Part shown: positions 1-7,589 of the stretch, in pieces
How the letters are laid out: the number at the start of each line of letters is the position of its first letter
Numbering within the stretch: the stretch's first letter is position 1
Source: Sphingomonas sp. PAMC26645
GTDB taxonomy: Bacteria > Pseudomonadota > Alphaproteobacteria > Sphingomonadales > Sphingomonadaceae
Assembly (NCBI RefSeq): GCF_004795835.1
Contig: NZ_CP039249.1
Span: forward strand, 434,001 to 498,000
Length of the DNA: 64,000 nucleotides
Direction: 5' to 3'
Notes under the pieces: generated by a model
Seen by the model: the letters and a program-made list of their open reading frames with translations, nothing else
Databases searched by the model: none
What the model was told of the DNA's origin: nothing
Program-made: the position numbers and the translations under genes

Positions 1-1197
1 GCCGATCGCTCGGTAGGTTGGCTGCTTGATCGGGCAGAACCGAACGGAAAATCCCGCATCCCGCGCTGCCGCTTCGAGCGTGTGGCTACGAAATTCGACG
101 GCGTTATCGAGGATCAGGCAGCCCGGCTTGCCGCAAAGCATCGCAAGAACCGGATATCGGCTTGTCATGGCCGGCGGGGGACGTTTGGGCAGCACGATGC
201 GCCGCAATATCTCGCTGACCGACCATCGGCACGGATCTTGGAAGGTTATCAGATGGCCGACGATGGCACGACTTTTGACGTCGATAGCGAGTGTCAGCCA
301 CGGTCGTCCAAGAACCATCTGAAGGGCCGGACATACGACATGTACGTCGAGCCAAGTGTGATCCACTATCACATACTGCATGACGAAATCAGCCGCGAGC
401 GGCTTGCCCGCTCCTGACCAATCCTGCTTGACGGCCTCTACCTCTATGGAGGTGGCCAAGGTCTTGTCCGACTCTAGTTCGTTGAAACGGCGTCGCACGG
501 TGCGCTCTGAGCAGACCTCAAAAGGCTCGTGCGGCTTGTCGATGGACGGGTGACGCCCGTCATTCACCAGATTGAGCCGATAGGCATAATCGGCATGGAT
601 GTCCGCGACGTGGCGCCCCGCCTTCCTGCCCTCGAGCACGCATGTCCAGAGGAGCTGCTGATCGATGCTGCCGTCCGGCGAACGCGCGATGCGCCTGCCG
701 GACAGCGGGACCATGTGACGAGGATGGCGATTTCCGATGCTGCCGCGGTTCTTTCGCCAATTCTTCACCGACGAGGCAGAAGGTTTTTGTCCGAATCGAT
801 GGGCCAACTCGGGCGTCCAGCAATCGTCGAGGGCGGCCTCAATAGCGCCGATGCCTTGCGGAACGCCCCGTTCGTCCAGCATTTGGCAGGCGGTCGCCAT
901 GCGCAAAGCGCGGGAAGAGATCGCACCCGCCTGATCGCGTGTCCATTCTGCGCTATCGTTGTAATTGCGGATTGTGTCGGATGAACGCGGCGTCCGGGTC
1001 ACAGCATCTCCACCGTGCTGCATAAGCTGGAATTGCTCGACGGTCGGCAATTCGAGCGATCCGTCCTTCTGCTCGTACTTGAGGATCTCGCCCGTGATCA
1101 GGTGGGTAAGCTGGACCCGGCCGTGAGCATAGGCAGGATGATATTCGGCTCCGCGAACATCGACGATCGCGCCGGGAGAAAAGCGGATGTGCGCCAT
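1..1197 (-). CDS. TnsB-like DDE transposase, 3' end outside window
   Basis: The first 399 codons of a transposase that continues beyond the left edge. An ATG at 1197 has an in-frame TAG just upstream and an AAAGG ribosome site, so the start is well fixed. The retroviral-integrase (rve) core is visible: first catalytic Asp at residue 279 (context VIVDHTWLDVHVV), then the strand TLAIDVKSRAIVGH, and the second Asp at 364 (LILDNAVEFRS). The expected catalytic Glu, about 36 residues later, falls just outside the window. In Tn7/Mu/Tn402-type elements such proteins bind the transposon ends and join the 3' ends to target DNA. The gene lies 133 bp downstream of a TnsA-like gene on the same strand, which favours a Tn7-like heteromeric transposase. 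A TnsC/TniB ATPase would be expected further left but is not visible. Confidence 0.85.
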   Translation of the reverse strand, partial: MAHIRFSPGAIVDVRGAEYHPAYAHGRVQLTHLITGEILKYEQKDGSLELPTVEQFQLMQHGGDAVTRTPRSSDTIRNYNDSAEWTRDQAGAISSRALRMATACQMLDERGVPQGIGAIEAALDDCWTPELAHRFGQKPSASSVKNWRKNRGSIGNRHPRHMVPLSGRRIARSPDGSIDQQLLWTCVLEGRKAGRHVADIHADYAYRLNLVNDGRHPSIDKPHEPFEVCSERTVRRRFNELESDKTLATSIEVEAVKQDWSGAGKPLAADFVMQYVIVDHTWLDVHVVCPALQMVLGRPWLTLAIDVKSRAIVGHLITFQDPCRWSVSEILRRIVLPKRPPPAMTSRYPVLAMLCGKPGCLILDNAVEFRSHTLEAAARDAGFSVRFCPIKQPTYRAIG

Positions 1198-1330: not shown

Positions 1331-2098
1331 TCAGTGAATGGTCACCGGCGTCGTATCCAAGAGCGAACGGGTAAGGTCGATTTCAATGCGCCGAGCAACC
1401 GTCAGCGCTTGAATCAAGGCTTCGCCGGTGCGTGGGCAGTTAGGCGCGATCGCTTTGGCGGTACTTCCGAAGGTAGCATCCGTGCCCACCTGCCTTTCGT
1501 GAGCTTCCAGACGCTCCAAATGCTCCGGTAGGATCGTCACGAACCTGCGTGAACAAAACAGCATCACGTTGCGACGATGAATGAGGCTGTCCCAGATCTG
1601 GTGACGAAGGATGACCTTGAACCGGATGCCATGCTCATCACAAATTTCGTGGACCGCCGTCAGCTTCGCGCGATACTCCGGGTCGGCAAGGTCACGCTGA
1701 TCTCGCTTGATCTCGATGAGCGTGACGGTGCCATCAGGTGCAACCAATTCGACGTCGATGGTGTAAACCTGCTTTTTGCCTCCCCGCGTGAATTCAAAGC
1801 GCACAGATTCTGATGCGACCCGAACCACGGCGAACTCCACCTCGGCGCGTGTCAGGAAATCGTACTGGGCCGCACCCTGCCAGTGAAGAACACGTCTGGC
1901 CTTGCGGCTTGTGTACCAGCCATTTTCATGGGCGAGTCCGCCGTTGAAGGTGCGCAGCGCACCACCATCGTCAGCCCGAATCATCCGCACATGATGCGCG
2001 TCGCTATGTTTGTCGCGGATGAACTGGGGCGTTGGTTCGCCATTGAAGCTGAGCAATAGCTCCGGCAGGTGATCGTGGTCTGCGGCATCGACTTTCAT
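1331..2098 (-). CDS. TnsA-like transposon endonuclease
   Basis: A 255-residue protein with an ATG start and a GGAAGG ribosome site 7 bp upstream. Residues 60-170 fit the TnsA N-terminal, restriction-enzyme-like nuclease fold: a GWYTSRKARRVLHW segment, then Asp115 (YTIDVEL) and Glu129-x-Lys131 (LIEIKRD), the usual D...ExK active site, followed by a helix and the strand RFKVILRHQIWD. In Tn7, TnsA cuts the 5' ends of the element while TnsB cuts the 3' ends. A Glu is normally conserved where this protein has Gln78 (AAQYDF) in my by-eye alignment; that needs a real alignment. It is first in a tnsA-tnsB order that reads toward the left edge. Confidence 0.78.
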   Translation of the reverse strand: MKVDAADHDHLPELLLSFNGEPTPQFIRDKHSDAHHVRMIRADDGGALRTFNGGLAHENGWYTSRKARRVLHWQGAAQYDFLTRAEVEFAVVRVASESVRFEFTRGGKKQVYTIDVELVAPDGTVTLIEIKRDQRDLADPEYRAKLTAVHEICDEHGIRFKVILRHQIWDSLIHRRNVMLFCSRRFVTILPEHLERLEAHERQVGTDATFGSTAKAIAPNCPRTGEALIQALTVARRIEIDLTRSLLDTTPVTIH

Positions 2099-3096: not shown

Positions 3097-4119
3097 ATGG
3101 AAATCGAACGGGAATGTATCGATGCGGTCCTGTATCGCCTCTACCAAGAGATAAAAGAACACGGCCGGCCTAACGCAGGCTCAAGAGGAAACACGATCGA
3201 GCTTCTGGGCGTGGCGCTCCGCATCACGAAGCCGCGCGCTCGCATCAGCCGGTCGGAGAACCGAGGGAAGCCCTTTAGCGCGATCGGCGAACTGCTTTGG
3301 TATCTGAAGGGGTCCGACACTTTGGAATTCATCGAGCCGTATGTAAGTGCGTACAGGGATGACGCGGTTGAGGGCATCATCCAGGGGGCTTACGGCCCGA
3401 GACTTCGCGCCATGCGCGAGGGCATCGACCAGTTCGCCAGCATTGAGGCGCTGCTGTCTAGGAAGCCAGGCTCGCGTCGTGCCGTGATCCAGCTGTTCAA
3501 CGCGGAGGATATAGCCACCGAGCATAAAGAGATCCCCTGCACGACCACGTTGCAATTCCATCTGCGCGACGGCCAGCTCCACATGTCGGTCACCATGCGT
3601 TCGAACGACGCGTACTGGGGACTGCCGCACGACGTGTTCTGCTTCACCATGCTGCAGGAGATGATAGCCCGCCGCCTCGGCGTCGATCTCGGGGAATACT
3701 ATCAGTACGTCGGCAGCATGCACGTCTATGAGAAACATCTCGACCTGCTTGACCAGTATGTCGCGGAAGGCTTCCAGCGTACAATGGAGATGCCTCCAAT
3801 GCCGAGCAGCGACCCGTTTGACCTAGTGGATCAACTCCTCGGCATCGAAGACCGGCTGCGTCAAGGCGATGATCTAGATGCCCATGCGGAAATGAGTGAT
3901 CCGTACTGGGGCGACATAGTGCGGCTGCTGCAGGTATTCTGGGCGAGGGTCTGGGCCGCGGACCATCCTGCGCGGCTGGCCGAACTGCGGGGACAGCTGG
4001 CAACGACCTTTTATCGACCGTATGTCGACGGCAGACTGCACCTTAAGAGTCGCGCGGAGCAGCCGCAGGCCGAAGCTGCGCAAATTGGGGAAAATCATGT
4101 GGCCGTCGAAGAACGCTGA
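3097..4119 (+). CDS. Thymidylate synthase family protein, dCMP-hydroxymethylase-like
   Basis: The start chosen is the ATG at 3097, with GAGGGG 9 bp upstream, giving 340 residues; the frame is open further upstream. The thymidylate synthase fold is clear: FSAIGELLWYLKG near residue 60, a GSRR phosphate-binding segment near 126, the catalytic cysteine Cys148 (EIPCTTTLQF), MRSND at 167-171, GLPHDVF at 175-181, and the H-x-Y substrate motif (SMHVYEKH). Thymidylate synthases have GLP-x-Asn; here the position is Asp179. In T4 dCMP hydroxymethylase the equivalent residues are Cys148 and Asp179, and this Asn-to-Asp change switches preference from dUMP to dCMP. I infer a dCMP hydroxymethylase or methylase rather than a housekeeping ThyA. 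It overlaps the next gene by 23 nt. Confidence 0.85.
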   Translation: MEIERECIDAVLYRLYQEIKEHGRPNAGSRGNTIELLGVALRITKPRARISRSENRGKPFSAIGELLWYLKGSDTLEFIEPYVSAYRDDAVEGIIQGAYGPRLRAMREGIDQFASIEALLSRKPGSRRAVIQLFNAEDIATEHKEIPCTTTLQFHLRDGQLHMSVTMRSNDAYWGLPHDVFCFTMLQEMIARRLGVDLGEYYQYVGSMHVYEKHLDLLDQYVAEGFQRTMEMPPMPSSDPFDLVDQLLGIEDRLRQGDDLDAHAEMSDPYWGDIVRLLQVFWARVWAADHPARLAELRGQLATTFYRPYVDGRLHLKSRAEQPQAEAAQIGENHVAVEER

Positions 4120-5008
4120 ACATCGGCGCCTCGTGAACGAGTTGCGGGCCGCCAAGGCGCCGCTCGGACTATCGGGCCTGCCGGATGCCGCCACGATTGA
4201 CACGCTGGCCATGCAGTTCGTCGCCAGTTTGCGTCGAGAGGCATACTACCGCTTGGTGCAGCTGAAGCCGTTGGGGCCGGCACGCGCGGACCCCAACAAC
4301 GCGTCGTTCGATCCCGAGCGTGCGGTCGCCTTCCATATGCAGCTAGGCGACGTCGACGAGGCCGGTTGGCTGATCTTTCTGATGACTCACTTCGCCCGTC
4401 CTCTATCCGGATGGCAGCGGCTGAAAGACGTCTATGGCCAGCTAGGCGGCGGACGGTGGAGCTGGGCCGCGGTCGTCGCCAATCCGGCCGCGTTTTACGC
4501 TTGGCTCGACGCCAATTGGCAGAACGTCGGTGGCGCCTTTGGAAACCACCGGAAGTACGAAAGCATGGATCCCAACACCAACCGACCGATGAAGCGGGCG
4601 GTGGCCGATTACATCGTATGGATCGGACCTGGCGGGCATGCCGCGTTCTTCGCGAACGCCGTCCTGGCCGCCGGCAATAATCCCAGCACAATCTTCGACT
4701 ATCTTTATAACCGCCTGAAGATCCGTTCGTTCGGTCGTTTGGCGAAGTTCGACTATCTCTCTAACATTGGCCGCTACCGCCTCGCGCCGATCGAAGCTGG
4801 TAAGGCCTATCTCGACGGGGCGACTGGGCCCGGGCGCGGCGCCCGTCTGATCGTAGACGGAAATCCTACCAGCGCGACCGGCAACCAAGCGATTCAGAAT
4901 TCCCTCGATGCGCTCGATCAACGGCTTCAGGTCGGGATGGCCGTCATGGAGGACGCGCTATGCAACTGGCAGAAGAGCCCCCGCCGCTTCATTCACTACG
5001 TAGGCTAG
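4097..5008 (+). CDS. AGPT-Pplase clade 3-like (alpha-glutamyl/putrescinyl thymine pyrophosphorylase)
   Basis: A 303-residue protein starting at the ATG at 4097, preceded by GGGGAA, inside the end of the upstream gene. Recognisable blocks are FDPERAVAFHMQLGDVDEAG (71-90), WLIFLMTHF (91-99), DVYGQLG (111-117), WSWAAV (121-126) and GGAFGNHRKYES (145-156). From memory this is the pattern of the alpha-glutamyl/putrescinyl thymine pyrophosphorylase-like family, clade 3, a predicted all-helical group related to helix-hairpin-helix glycosylases. Relatives in phages take part in hypermodifying 5-hydroxymethyl bases in DNA. Translational coupling to a dCMP-hydroxymethylase-like gene suggests both act in one nucleotide or DNA-base modification pathway. 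The exact reaction is unknown. Confidence 0.7.
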   Translation: MWPSKNAEHRRLVNELRAAKAPLGLSGLPDAATIDTLAMQFVASLRREAYYRLVQLKPLGPARADPNNASFDPERAVAFHMQLGDVDEAGWLIFLMTHFARPLSGWQRLKDVYGQLGGGRWSWAAVVANPAAFYAWLDANWQNVGGAFGNHRKYESMDPNTNRPMKRAVADYIVWIGPGGHAAFFANAVLAAGNNPSTIFDYLYNRLKIRSFGRLAKFDYLSNIGRYRLAPIEAGKAYLDGATGPGRGARLIVDGNPTSATGNQAIQNSLDALDQRLQVGMAVMEDALCNWQKSPRRFIHYVG

Positions 5009-6108
5009 TCGAGCACCGGGGAGAGGTCGCGCCACTTCCAGAACTTCTTCAGCTCGTTGAGCTGAGCCGGCCCGATCATGCGATGGTGCTGCATCTGTCC
5101 TACGGTCAGGCCAGGCCCTACACCGGAGCGGACGCTGAATCTGATCACCGAATTCCGGTTGTCGCCGAGGCATTCGAATTCCTCGTGCCTGTCCAACGGG
5201 ACGATGCACCGCGCGGCGAACTCGTTCGCCTCACGCTCGCTCTGATCGACACCATGCATGTCTTCGTCAACGAAGGTTTTAGCGCCATGAAGAAGAAGGT
5301 GCCCGATCTCATGCAGCAGCGTGAACCAGAATTTGTCGTTCGCGAGACCACGGAAGCTCATGAGTATCATGGCCTTGTCGGGGGCGACCATGCGGGTGGC
5401 ACCCGACGCTCGACAACCCTCGGGCGCCTTCTTGGCGACTACCGCAACACCGGCCTCGGCGCACAGGGTCTTGAGCTTGGGCAGGAACCGCTCGGGATCC
5501 TTAAGTTTGGTAAGCGCCTTGATGGCATCCAGGCGATCGTGAAGGTTCCCCGCGCTCCATGGCCGGGTTGCGATCATGTCGGTCGCCAACTCGCCGCTGC
5601 GCAGCCACATTAGAACGGCGGTGTCCTTGGATTCGAAAGAGCTCGAGGTCCTGAACAACGTGTCCGAACAGATCCTGCCGTAGCGCGCTTCCCACGCTTT
5701 CATTGTCCCGACGTTGAAGAACGCAAGACGCCGTCGAACCTCGTCCCGGCGACGCTCATCGCAAAGCCGGCCCCTCGGCCGCGGACCCGGGACCTGCAGC
5801 TGGAGCCACGACTGCGCTTCATCCATGCTCGCTGTCGCCCGTTCGAGCGCACGTTCGAGCGCGTCCTCGTAGTTGGACTGACGCTTTAGCCAGAACGACG
5901 CAGTACCGCCCAGGGAGGCGGAAAGCACCTCGGCGTGATGCGCGTCGACGGCTTCTGCACCTCCCAGGAGACCGCGAAGAGTGACCATTCCGCCCGCAAG
6001 ATTCTCGGCGACCTGCTGCGCCGTGACACCGCGCCGCACCATTAGCGCGCGCAAAGAGTCACCGGGCTTTGAAAACCAATCGGGCGTGAACTCGTGTCCG
6101 TCCGTCAA
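5005..6108 (-). CDS. HTH-ImmA/IrrE family metallopeptidase
   Basis: A 367-residue protein. Residues 17-75 form a HigA/VapI-type helix-turn-helix (LRALMVRRGVTAQQVAENL...). Residues 210-330 form an ImmA/IrrE zinc peptidase with the HEIGH motif at 266-270 and a downstream EREANEFAAR helix that should carry the third metal ligand. Proteins of this layout act as antitoxin-like repressors or as proteases that cleave a repressor after damage or phage signals. The start is a TTG that overlaps the stop of the upstream HigB-like gene as TTGA. The stop overlaps the stop of the convergent AGPT-like gene at CTAG. Its place beside the modification genes suggests a regulator or safety switch for them; that is inference. 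Confidence 0.82.
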   Translation of the reverse strand: MTDGHEFTPDWFSKPGDSLRALMVRRGVTAQQVAENLAGGMVTLRGLLGGAEAVDAHHAEVLSASLGGTASFWLKRQSNYEDALERALERATASMDEAQSWLQLQVPGPRPRGRLCDERRRDEVRRRLAFFNVGTMKAWEARYGRICSDTLFRTSSSFESKDTAVLMWLRSGELATDMIATRPWSAGNLHDRLDAIKALTKLKDPERFLPKLKTLCAEAGVAVVAKKAPEGCRASGATRMVAPDKAMILMSFRGLANDKFWFTLLHEIGHLLLHGAKTFVDEDMHGVDQSEREANEFAARCIVPLDRHEEFECLGDNRNSVIRFSVRSGVGPGLTVGQMQHHRMIGPAQLNELKKFWKWRDLSPVLD

Positions 6109-6434
6109 GGCAGCCTCGATATTTCCAACAGCTTCAACCTTGTTACGCTGGACCAGACAATCCGGCCGCCGGCATCCACCTTGTGACGCGTGCCGACCAC
6201 GGCAAGCGCTGCGCGATAGTCTGAACCAATCGCGACGGAAAGGGAATCGTTCACCAAAATATTTATGTCGTGGCCAAACAGGTCGATCAATTCATCGGCG
6301 GTCTCGAACGCCTGTGCATCCGATAGGAAGGTGACAAGCGATGCGGCCGCGATGCTGCCATAGGCCTGCTCCGCCTTGTGCAGGTCGACGCAGGCTTCGT
6401 GGAGCGATTCGCCTTCAAATGTGATGTTGATCAA
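6105..6434 (-). CDS. HigB/RelE-like toxin-family protein
   Basis: A 109-residue protein starting at TTG (6434); an in-frame stop lies just upstream and no ATG or GTG is available. The layout resembles the HigB/RelE superfamily branch often named killer suppression protein: an N-terminal NITFEGESLHEAC segment, a central helical part, then LSVAIGSDYRAAL and the ending IVWSSVTRLKLLEIS, compared with the family's W-x-x-V-T...EI ending. It overlaps the HTH-ImmA/IrrE gene by 4 nt, the usual toxin-antitoxin arrangement with toxin first. Similarity is weak and the RelE catalytic residues are not obvious, so it may be a non-toxic partner. Confidence 0.55.
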   Translation of the reverse strand: MINITFEGESLHEACVDLHKAEQAYGSIAAASLVTFLSDAQAFETADELIDLFGHDINILVNDSLSVAIGSDYRAALAVVGTRHKVDAGGRIVWSSVTRLKLLEISRLP

Positions 6435-6510: not shown

Positions 6511-6888
6511 TCATTGCGGTAGCGGCGATCCGTGTGGCTTCGACTGCTGCTTGGCGCGAATGGCTTCGATCCGATCCCAATTGCGTTCAAGTTCCCTGTC
6601 GCCAGCCTCGTCCATGTTGATTTCGACGGCGCTGCACAGGCTCGCCAGCGTCACTAGCACGCCGCCGACCTCCTGGGCCGGCAGCCCCTGCGGCCGGCCG
6701 AACACGTAATCGACAAGGGCGATGGCGTCATCGCGCGAACAGGCGTTGGCTTGGGCGAGCTCTAGGGCCTCTTCGAGGAAGCGATGGGTCCGTTCGCTGC
6801 GGTCGGACCGAACCGAAGGCGGGAAGCAGGCCTCGAGCCAGCGCTCGACACGGGCCTGATACGATGTGATGTCGGCCGCCAACGTCAT
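6511..6888 (-). CDS. MazG-like nucleotide pyrophosphohydrolase
   Basis: The start chosen is the ATG at 6888, giving 125 residues; the frame is open to 6957. The N-terminus MTLAADITSYQARVERWLEA and the block RFLEEALELAQA (37-48, carrying the EExxE metal motif) fit small phage-type MazG-like proteins, as does AQEVGGVLVTLASLCSA (71-87). The second acidic motif is ExxG here rather than the usual ExxD, which seems to be normal for this subfamily. Such enzymes split nucleoside triphosphates to monophosphates. Next to a dCMP-hydroxymethylase-like gene it could play the part T4 gp56 (dCTPase) plays for gp42, but this is inferred from context. It heads a minus-strand run with the next two genes, 76 bp upstream of the HigB-like gene. 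Confidence 0.65.
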   Translation of the reverse strand: MTLAADITSYQARVERWLEACFPPSVRSDRSERTHRFLEEALELAQANACSRDDAIALVDYVFGRPQGLPAQEVGGVLVTLASLCSAVEINMDEAGDRELERNWDRIEAIRAKQQSKPHGSPLPQ

Positions 6889-7515
6889 CCCCCAAAACAT
6901 GCACCGATAAGCCGATGGCGCAAAATCCACCTTAGACAAGCGGGAAAGGCCGGTCATCCAGCAAAAGTAGACGATTTGACACGCAATTCTGTACCGAAGC
7001 TTGACGCATCAACCCGCCGTTGCGTCGACGGTGATGGCCCTATTTGACAAGGGAGTATTTCGGTGGTTGCCACCGACATGCGAGATCCGGCGTTGCAACG
7101 GAACACGCTATGGCTATGGTCTCGATCTAAATTCCGAGTGTGGTGCAGAGACGCCGTCTCTTACCTCGCGCACGTACAACTACCTGAACACATGTCCAAA
7201 GTTGGGCATAGTAGACGATCTTGCGAAAGACCGGTTCTGGGTCTTCGCTGCCACTTGTTGGCCAATCGCCTACTTACCACTCTCAGTGGCACACAAGCCT
7301 GAACACGCCGGTAAACTCGCCAACAGACAGAAAAGGGCGTTGTGTTTGCCTGCCTAAAGACGAAACGCCTTCTCCTCCCAGCGGCTTGAAGCCTTACCGA
7401 AGCAGCTTGGAAACTAGCCCACCAGCAGGACCGCACCCTGATTCCACCGAGGCCAAGCACGCCGACGACGGCCCCTGTCACGGAGGTCGAGTTTTGATGT
7501 CAAAGGATAACGCGC
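6889..7515. other. Non-coding junction beside the tRNA-Gln gene
   Basis: No reading frame in this 627-bp stretch looks like a protein I recognise, and its composition is more mixed than the core genes. It lies between the island genes and the 3' end of tRNA-Gln, where integrase remnants and attachment sites usually sit. No integrase and no obvious copy of the tRNA 3' end was found here. Confidence 0.5.
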
Positions 7516-7589
7516 TGGATGCCCCGTGAGGATTCGAACCTCAATAGGCGGTATCAGAAACCGCAGTCTTACCATTAGACGACGGGGCA
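7516..7589 (-). tRNA. tRNA-Gln (anticodon CTG)
   Basis: The minus strand folds into a full cloverleaf. The 7-bp acceptor stem is TGCCCCG with CGGGGCA. A D-arm (GTCT...AGAC) and an anticodon stem GCGGT/ACCGC around the loop TTCTGAT give anticodon CTG (glutamine). The T-arm is GAGG-TTCGAAT-CCTC. The CCA end is encoded (TGG at 7516-7518 on the plus strand). The base before CCA is U rather than the more usual G. Its 3' end faces the accessory region, the usual position of a tRNA that served as an integration site. Confidence 0.93.

Follow-up and report, generated by a model that had tools for sequence, protein, structure and literature searches.

A dCMP-hydroxymethylase-like gene and an amino acid:DNA transferase-like gene in a mobile bacterial module with a HigBA-like pair

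The module and its conservation

The DNA analyzed here, hereafter the window, is a stretch of 64,000 nucleotides (nt) from Sphingomonas sp. PAMC26645 (NZ_CP039249.1, positions 434,001 to 498,000), whose genome is a single 4.28-Mb contig (G000:C1 in the coordinates below). Close to its left end lie two overlapping genes, gene 1 and gene 2, which code for a protein of the thymidylate synthase (TS) family resembling deoxycytidine monophosphate (dCMP) hydroxymethylases and for a protein of clade 3 of the aGPT-Pplase family (aGPT3) resembling amino acid:DNA transferases. Downstream, on the other strand, are genes for a protein with a helix-turn-helix (HTH) domain and an M78 peptidase domain, for a small protein with a HigB fold and for a MazG-like protein:

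3097..4119, + strand: gene 1, thymidylate-synthase-family, dCMP-hydroxymethylase-like protein of 340 amino acids (ATG at 3097, stop codon ending at 4119)
4097..5008, + strand: gene 2, aGPT-Pplase clade 3 or amino acid:DNA transferase-like protein of 303 amino acids
5005..6108, − strand, convergent to gene 2: HigA-like HTH plus M78 (ImmA/IrrE) metallopeptidase gene
6105..6434, − strand: gene for a HigB-fold small protein of 109 amino acids, without a C-terminal Tyr-His
6511..6957, − strand: MazG-like gene, the fifth module member in this clade (alternative start possible at 6906)

The earliest in-frame ATG of gene 2 is at 4022, and we prefer the ATG at 4097 because the relatives of the protein, among them the annotated copy on an Agrobacterium plasmid, begin at the corresponding residue. 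Begun there, gene 2 shares 23 nt with gene 1, which makes translational coupling of the two genes plausible; the overlap bears out a first-pass annotation of this DNA, which had described two coupled, overlapping genes, and both open reading frames (ORFs) are real. The stop codons of gene 2 and of the HTH-M78 gene both fall within the CTAG at 5005-5008.

To survey the locus, GTDB 220 was scanned at one genome per species with a profile of gene 2; of the 201 relatives found, we used the top-scoring 80 and set aside the other, more distant 121, and the resulting set of 112 loci also takes in 25 loci on 24 IMG/VR contigs and seven fetched records of the eight plasmid records found. These 112 loci are not all independent, as identical scores occur between some loci on viral contigs and loci in genomes. 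Gene 2 is preceded by a TS gene in 111 of them, an M78 gene lies convergently downstream in 109 and a HigB-like gene is present in 105, the one, three and seven remaining loci, respectively, being cut by contig ends; all four genes are visible in 104, and no part is missing except at contig ends. Since the gene order is the same in 112/112 loci as far as the contigs reach, the association of the TS gene with gene 2 is not due to chance, which answers for the pair the question that a neighborhood survey had been proposed to settle. The same data overturn the view that the two genes stand alone: they make up one half of a conserved module that also holds the HTH-M78 protease, the HigB-fold protein and a clade-specific MazG-like protein. 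The pair and the island had been recognized correctly in the first-pass annotation, and the convergent genes at 5005-6108 and 6105-6434, the MazG-like gene at 6511-6957 and the Tn7-like element described below had been overlooked. Moreover, across 77 loci the pairwise identities of the proteins are correlated (aGPT3-TS, r 0.83; aGPT3-M78, 0.89; TS-M78, 0.86; maximum after shuffling, 0.16), as expected if the genes were inherited together as a unit, with shared host history also contributing to these values.

The hosts named in the scan and for the plasmids include Alpha-, Beta- and Gammaproteobacteria, Bacteroidota, Acidobacteria, Chloroflexi, Planctomycetes, Gemmatimonadota, Verrucomicrobia, Leptospira and Arthrobacter. 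Its distribution is patchy: the gene 2 family is present in 4 of 398 sampled genomes of the phylum (the window's own counted), three of which carry the full module. The fourth holds a distant aGPT3 relative, outside the 112 loci (L131 1651-2556, genome G074), which has no TS, M78 or HigB-like gene nearby and lies near an ORF that by eye resembles a transposase; it may be either a solitary use of the family or a fragment. In addition, two module loci with identical scores (L106 and L107) lie about 93 kb apart on the contig IMGVR_UViG_3300025711_000239, where the module is either present twice or repeated by the assembly.

The modification genes and their phage counterparts

The gene 1 protein matches PF00303 (E 1.5e-28), and a profile built from eight sequences, the window copy and seven plasmid copies, found among PDB entries the CMP 5-hydroxymethylase MilA as top match (5b6d, E 1.1e-69; also 5jnh, about 1e-69), with the best thymidylate synthase far behind (E 1.9e-28). 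Two papers on the TS superfamily (PMC5175136, PMC6400193) give Asp179 as the cytosine determinant and Ser and Arg as the deoxyribose determinants, MilA carrying Ala and Lys instead, and an acidic residue three positions before the catalytic Cys as a mark of hydroxymethylation. We counted these residues, in T4 numbering, in 112 TS sequences from module loci, the window's own copy among them. The catalytic residues C148 and E60 are kept in 112 and 110 sequences, respectively; the cytosine-type Asp179, which in gene 1 sits in the motif RSNDAYWGLPHD, and the deoxyribose-type Ser169 are found in all 112. Position 127 is Arg in 93 sequences and Lys in 19, position 145 is acidic (Glu or Asp) in 104, and the window copy has Arg and Glu at these two positions. 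The TS fold and the dCMP-type specificity residue reported in the first reading of this DNA are thus upheld. Of the Ser-x-Tyr signature the Tyr is kept in 112/112 sequences and the Ser is not: the position of T4 Ser94 is occupied by Gly in 106 sequences, Ser in three and Ala in three. Because of this replacement we call gene 1 dCMP-hydroxymethylase-like only and do not assign its product. Gene 1 shares with MilA and phage T4 gp42, the CMP and dCMP 5-hydroxymethylases, the Cys, the Asp179-type residue, the Tyr and, mostly, an Asp or Glu of the 145 type; it differs from T4 gp42 in the Gly at position 94, from MilA in Ser169, where MilA has Ala, and from both in being coupled to a transferase gene. 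Phages often carry TS-family relatives of gene 1, which occur in 2706 of 50,697 phage records. A role as the housekeeping thymidylate synthase is rejected: the same genome encodes a separate, full-length ThyA (C1:4183895; PF00303, E 7.6e-121), so that gene 1 is not the sole thymidylate synthase, and no match to ThyX was found in that genome.

For gene 2 the Pfam scan, made with the 4022-5008 version of the ORF, returned PF18746 (aGPT-Pplase3, E 1.5e-116) and PF18724 (ADDT, amino acid:DNA transferase; E 6.2e-72, 242.5 bits with a cut-off of 26.2), and the protein therefore falls in a named aGPT-Pplase family, where it had first been placed, and not in an unrelated one. A C-terminal Glu-x3-Cys motif (E285 and C289) is invariant in 59 bacterial gene 2 proteins, and its equivalent (E243 and C247) in eight phage transferases; a Trp two positions after the Cys occurs in only four of those eight phage proteins. 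The motif is aligned in a profile-profile comparison of the bacterial and phage proteins (E 4.7e-5, probability 68%), which supersedes a shallower one between seven aGPT3 sequences and the single phage M6 transferase (E 0.045, probability 1). When the predicted structure of gene 2 was compared with PDB entries, the top rows were those of the phage glycinyltransferase PUGT, followed by others that include a queuosine salvage enzyme and 8-oxoguanine glycosylases; Foldseek gave no PDB match at E ≤0.001 for this model. We infer from the profiles and the structure model that gene 2 probably codes for a glycosylase-fold transferase related to the phage amino acid:DNA transferases. The gene itself found no tblastn match at E 1e-5 in the 50,697 phage records, and the PADLOC 2023 models matched neither the gene 1 nor the gene 2 protein at E 0.1.

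The thymidine cassettes of the Pseudomonas phages M6 and PaMx11 and of the Delftia phage phiW-14 likewise combine a TS-family enzyme with a PF18724 transferase (phage M6 gp51, E 1.4e-46, as against E 6.2e-72 for the window protein), with the invariant Glu-x3-Cys in common. Unlike them, the module has the cytosine-type D179, bacterial hosts and the HTH-M78 and HigB-fold partners. The phage pathways first phosphorylate 5-hydroxymethyldeoxyuridine in DNA. In contrast, the family of that DNA kinase, PF18748, was matched in none of 28 genomes, with phage M6 positive as a control, in a search that did not include PF18723. Single phage M6 proteins run with phmmer against the loci found nothing, that search also missing the transferase. 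Hydroxymethylcytosine can react via a C6 adduct; this property and the invariant Cys of gene 2 make a kinase-free route chemically conceivable, and we offer such a route, through a C6 adduct and that Cys, as a conjecture.

The convergent pair, the accessory genes and the carrier

The HTH-M78 protein matches PF06114 (31.7 bits, cut-off 22), its N-terminus matches HigA antitoxins (E 3.6e-10) and HExxH is present in 111 of 112 M78 sequences. It is also matched by the PADLOC model PD-Lambda-2_B (E 2.5e-17) and, below the cut-off, by the spr1629 family (E 3.2e-8). The HigB fold of the small protein was assigned from its structure model (VIA), for which Foldseek found no PDB match at E ≤0.001; a profile of the HigB-like proteins found nothing among PDB sequences (one row, E 1). 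With its HigB fold, its HigA-like HTH and a small gene followed by the HTH gene (an order seen in 105/112 loci, the other seven ending at a contig edge), the pair resembles HigBA systems with an M78 antitoxin (spr1629-like; PD-Lambda-2_B). It differs from known HigBA in two ways: the C-terminal Tyr-His of HigB (Y91 and H92 in PDB titles) is kept in none of 108 HigB-like proteins of the module, and the pair is convergent with the modification genes wherever a surveyed locus reaches them. The HigBA-like pair suggests control of the module or an abortive response.

In 34 of the 112 surveyed loci, and in the window, a MazG-like gene is found at this position and in this orientation. Its profile has the pyrophosphatase 4qgp as best PDB match (E 0.01), and one of 20 members matches the MazG family PF03819 (E 4.5e-4). 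The protein also matches phrog_14118 (1.3e-50) and phrog_8593 (1.7e-48), phage families of unknown function whose profiles are longer than the protein and only partly covered. In 21 other loci (20 of them aligned) an extra gene of 260-294 codons lies between TS and aGPT3 (for example, L009 5166-5969 and L064 8213-8998), never in the same locus as the MazG-like gene. Its product has conserved motifs of the GLNPS, HLD and NHN.QS types, and by eye we take GLNPS and NHNLQSS to recall uracil-DNA glycosylase (UDG). None of 20 members matches a UDG family of Pfam, no PDB match was found, and the profile of the extra gene matches 13 UDG sequences weakly (E 0.09).

The module of the window lies in a 53.5-kb insertion (G000:C1:388023-441509) adjoining the 3′ end of a tRNA-Gln gene, between tnsA and the right end of a Tn7-like element that has TnsA-, TnsC- and TniQ-type genes over the Pfam cut-offs (PF08722, PF05621 and PF06527), with a TnsB-type gene among them (Mu-transpos_C, E 0.0018, below the cut-off). 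The corresponding features are:

1..1197, − strand: TnsB-like transposase gene, 5′ part, the rest lying upstream of the window (724-amino-acid ORF, L132:4024-6198)
1331..2098, − strand: TnsA-like gene (PF08722, 29.2 bits, cut-off 26.5)
7498..7509: right tip of the Tn7-like element, TATCCTTTGACA read inward
7510..7514: 5-bp target-site duplication ACGCG, the same 5 bp standing directly left of G000:C1:388023
7516..7589, − strand: tRNA-Gln (CTG), the landmark of the insertion
G000:C1:388023: left tip of the Tn7-like element, TGTCCTTTGACA

The ends were not found when sought by repeats alone and were located by comparison with relatives. The homology of three relatives to the window begins at 7502, 7510 and 7512, beside the tRNA-Gln; the sequence that one of these has to the left of the junction matches G000:C1:380399-388000, on which the span 388023-441509 is based, and no match was found for the left flank of a second. 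Near the left end of the element (L186 3001-6307), ORFs resemble by eye a serine recombinase and ParB proteins. Carriers differ between loci, since phmmer searches with the four Tns-type proteins of the window found no relative at any other locus; one plasmid locus has an annotated TniQ gene. With the surveyed bacterial loci and the Tn7-like element around the window copy, the bacterial setting and the island of the first-pass annotation both stand.

Flanking genes were scanned for 25 loci (147 proteins, out of 293 in 50 loci). No Pfam family occurs in more than three of the 147 proteins, genes without a Pfam match escaping this count, and PADLOC gave scattered matches, with at most two members per family among the 25 families listed of 274. 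As these counts stand without a background set, we claim no enrichment in defense islands. The recurrent MazG-like gene escaped them, having no strong Pfam match, and other such genes may exist.

Proposed function and alternatives

Taken together, the sequence comparisons are best explained if the pair serves modification in a bacterial module that moves horizontally and of which it forms one half; in this module enzymes of the phage hypermodification type would take a bacterial, cytosine-aimed, kinase-less and HigBA-linked form. The interpretation first given to the pair is partly supported: right in kind and too narrow in scope. In the mechanism we propose, gene 1 would use methylene-tetrahydrofolate as donor of a one-carbon unit for C5 of dCMP, with 5-hydroxymethyl-dCMP as the most likely product, and gene 2 would join an amino acid or amine to this handle, either on the nucleotide or once it has been built into DNA, without the DNA kinase of the phage thymidine pathways. 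The HigB-fold protein and the HTH-M78 protease may form a sensor or switch derived from a toxin-antitoxin (TA) system, guarding the module or responding to infection; the MazG-like protein of this clade could trim or select the nucleotide pool. The role would most likely be defense against phages or other mobile DNA. The DefensePredictor paper (PMC13092281, 2026) lists an aGPT-Pplase system among its predictions, with none of those domains validated, and names thymidylate synthase and 5-hydroxymethyluracil kinase among the domains of validated systems, possibly of separate ones. The likeness to the module is that of an aGPT-Pplase domain in a predicted defense system. No literature on the module was found beyond that paper; Iyer 2013 and Burroughs 2015 may already describe the pair. 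A defense role is supported by the mobility and patchiness of the module, by the PD-Lambda-2_B likeness of its M78 protein and by this listing. We give about an even chance that the module hypermodifies deoxycytidine without a kinase, is linked to a HigBA/M78 switch and is probably directed against phages.

Among the alternatives, the most serious, though we consider it unlikely, is that the system acts at the nucleotide level: a free modified dCMP derivative would poison phage replication or serve as a signal, the DNA staying unmodified, and the MazG-like protein or the product of the extra gene would process the nucleotide. TS-family enzymes do work on free nucleotides, the closest profile match of gene 1, MilA, is an enzyme of nucleoside synthesis, a MazG-like gene adjoins the module in 34 loci and the DNA kinase family is unmatched in the 28 genomes; against this stands the match of gene 2 to PF18724, whose phage members act on DNA. 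That a hypermodified base labels host or mobile-element DNA, protecting it from restriction or marking it epigenetically, would suit carriage on plasmids and a transposon and has an analogy in the phage cassettes. Self-marking of this kind is nevertheless quite improbable in our estimate, as no Pfam-matching nuclease or reader family recurs in more than three of the 147 flanking proteins (Pfam-less genes escaping) and the genes conserved alongside the two enzymes form a TA-like pair.

The glycosylase-like fold predicted for gene 2, with the queuosine salvage enzyme and the 8-oxoguanine glycosylases behind PUGT, could also fit an enzyme that recognizes hypermodified bases in phage DNA and takes them out or changes them, in line with the first-pass suggestion of an action on phage DNA that carries such bases; the nucleotide-modifying enzyme coupled to it in 111/112 loci points to synthesis instead, and we hold such counter-modification very unlikely. 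Already disfavored, and the least probable of all, is an origin as a phage hypermodification cassette that was left behind or relocated: 25 module loci do lie on 24 IMG/VR contigs and phages abound in TS-family relatives, but gene 2 has no match in the same phage records, the HigBA-like partners are conserved and the phage-type kinase family is found in 0/28 genomes.

A fuller version of the kinase-free modification module goes further and is correspondingly tentative, doubtful as a whole. A widespread bacterial immune module would write a new, kinase-independent hypermodified base, an amino-acid-linked 5-methylene-deoxycytidine, into invading DNA or its precursors; a repurposed HigBA, with a catalytically emptied HigB and an M78 protease-antitoxin, would serve as both sensor and trigger, and what becomes of the modified nucleotide would depend on interchangeable accessory enzymes, either the MazG-like one or the product of the extra gene of 21 loci. 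Phages are known to use DNA hypermodification as a weapon. A conserved, mobile bacterial module of the same enzyme types, directed at cytosine, lacking the phage kinase family and joined to a TA-derived pair, would bring to bacteria a base or nucleotide chemistry that is new, together with a new use of it, and would give a function to the Pfam clade PF18746, to the MazG-like gene and to the extra gene.
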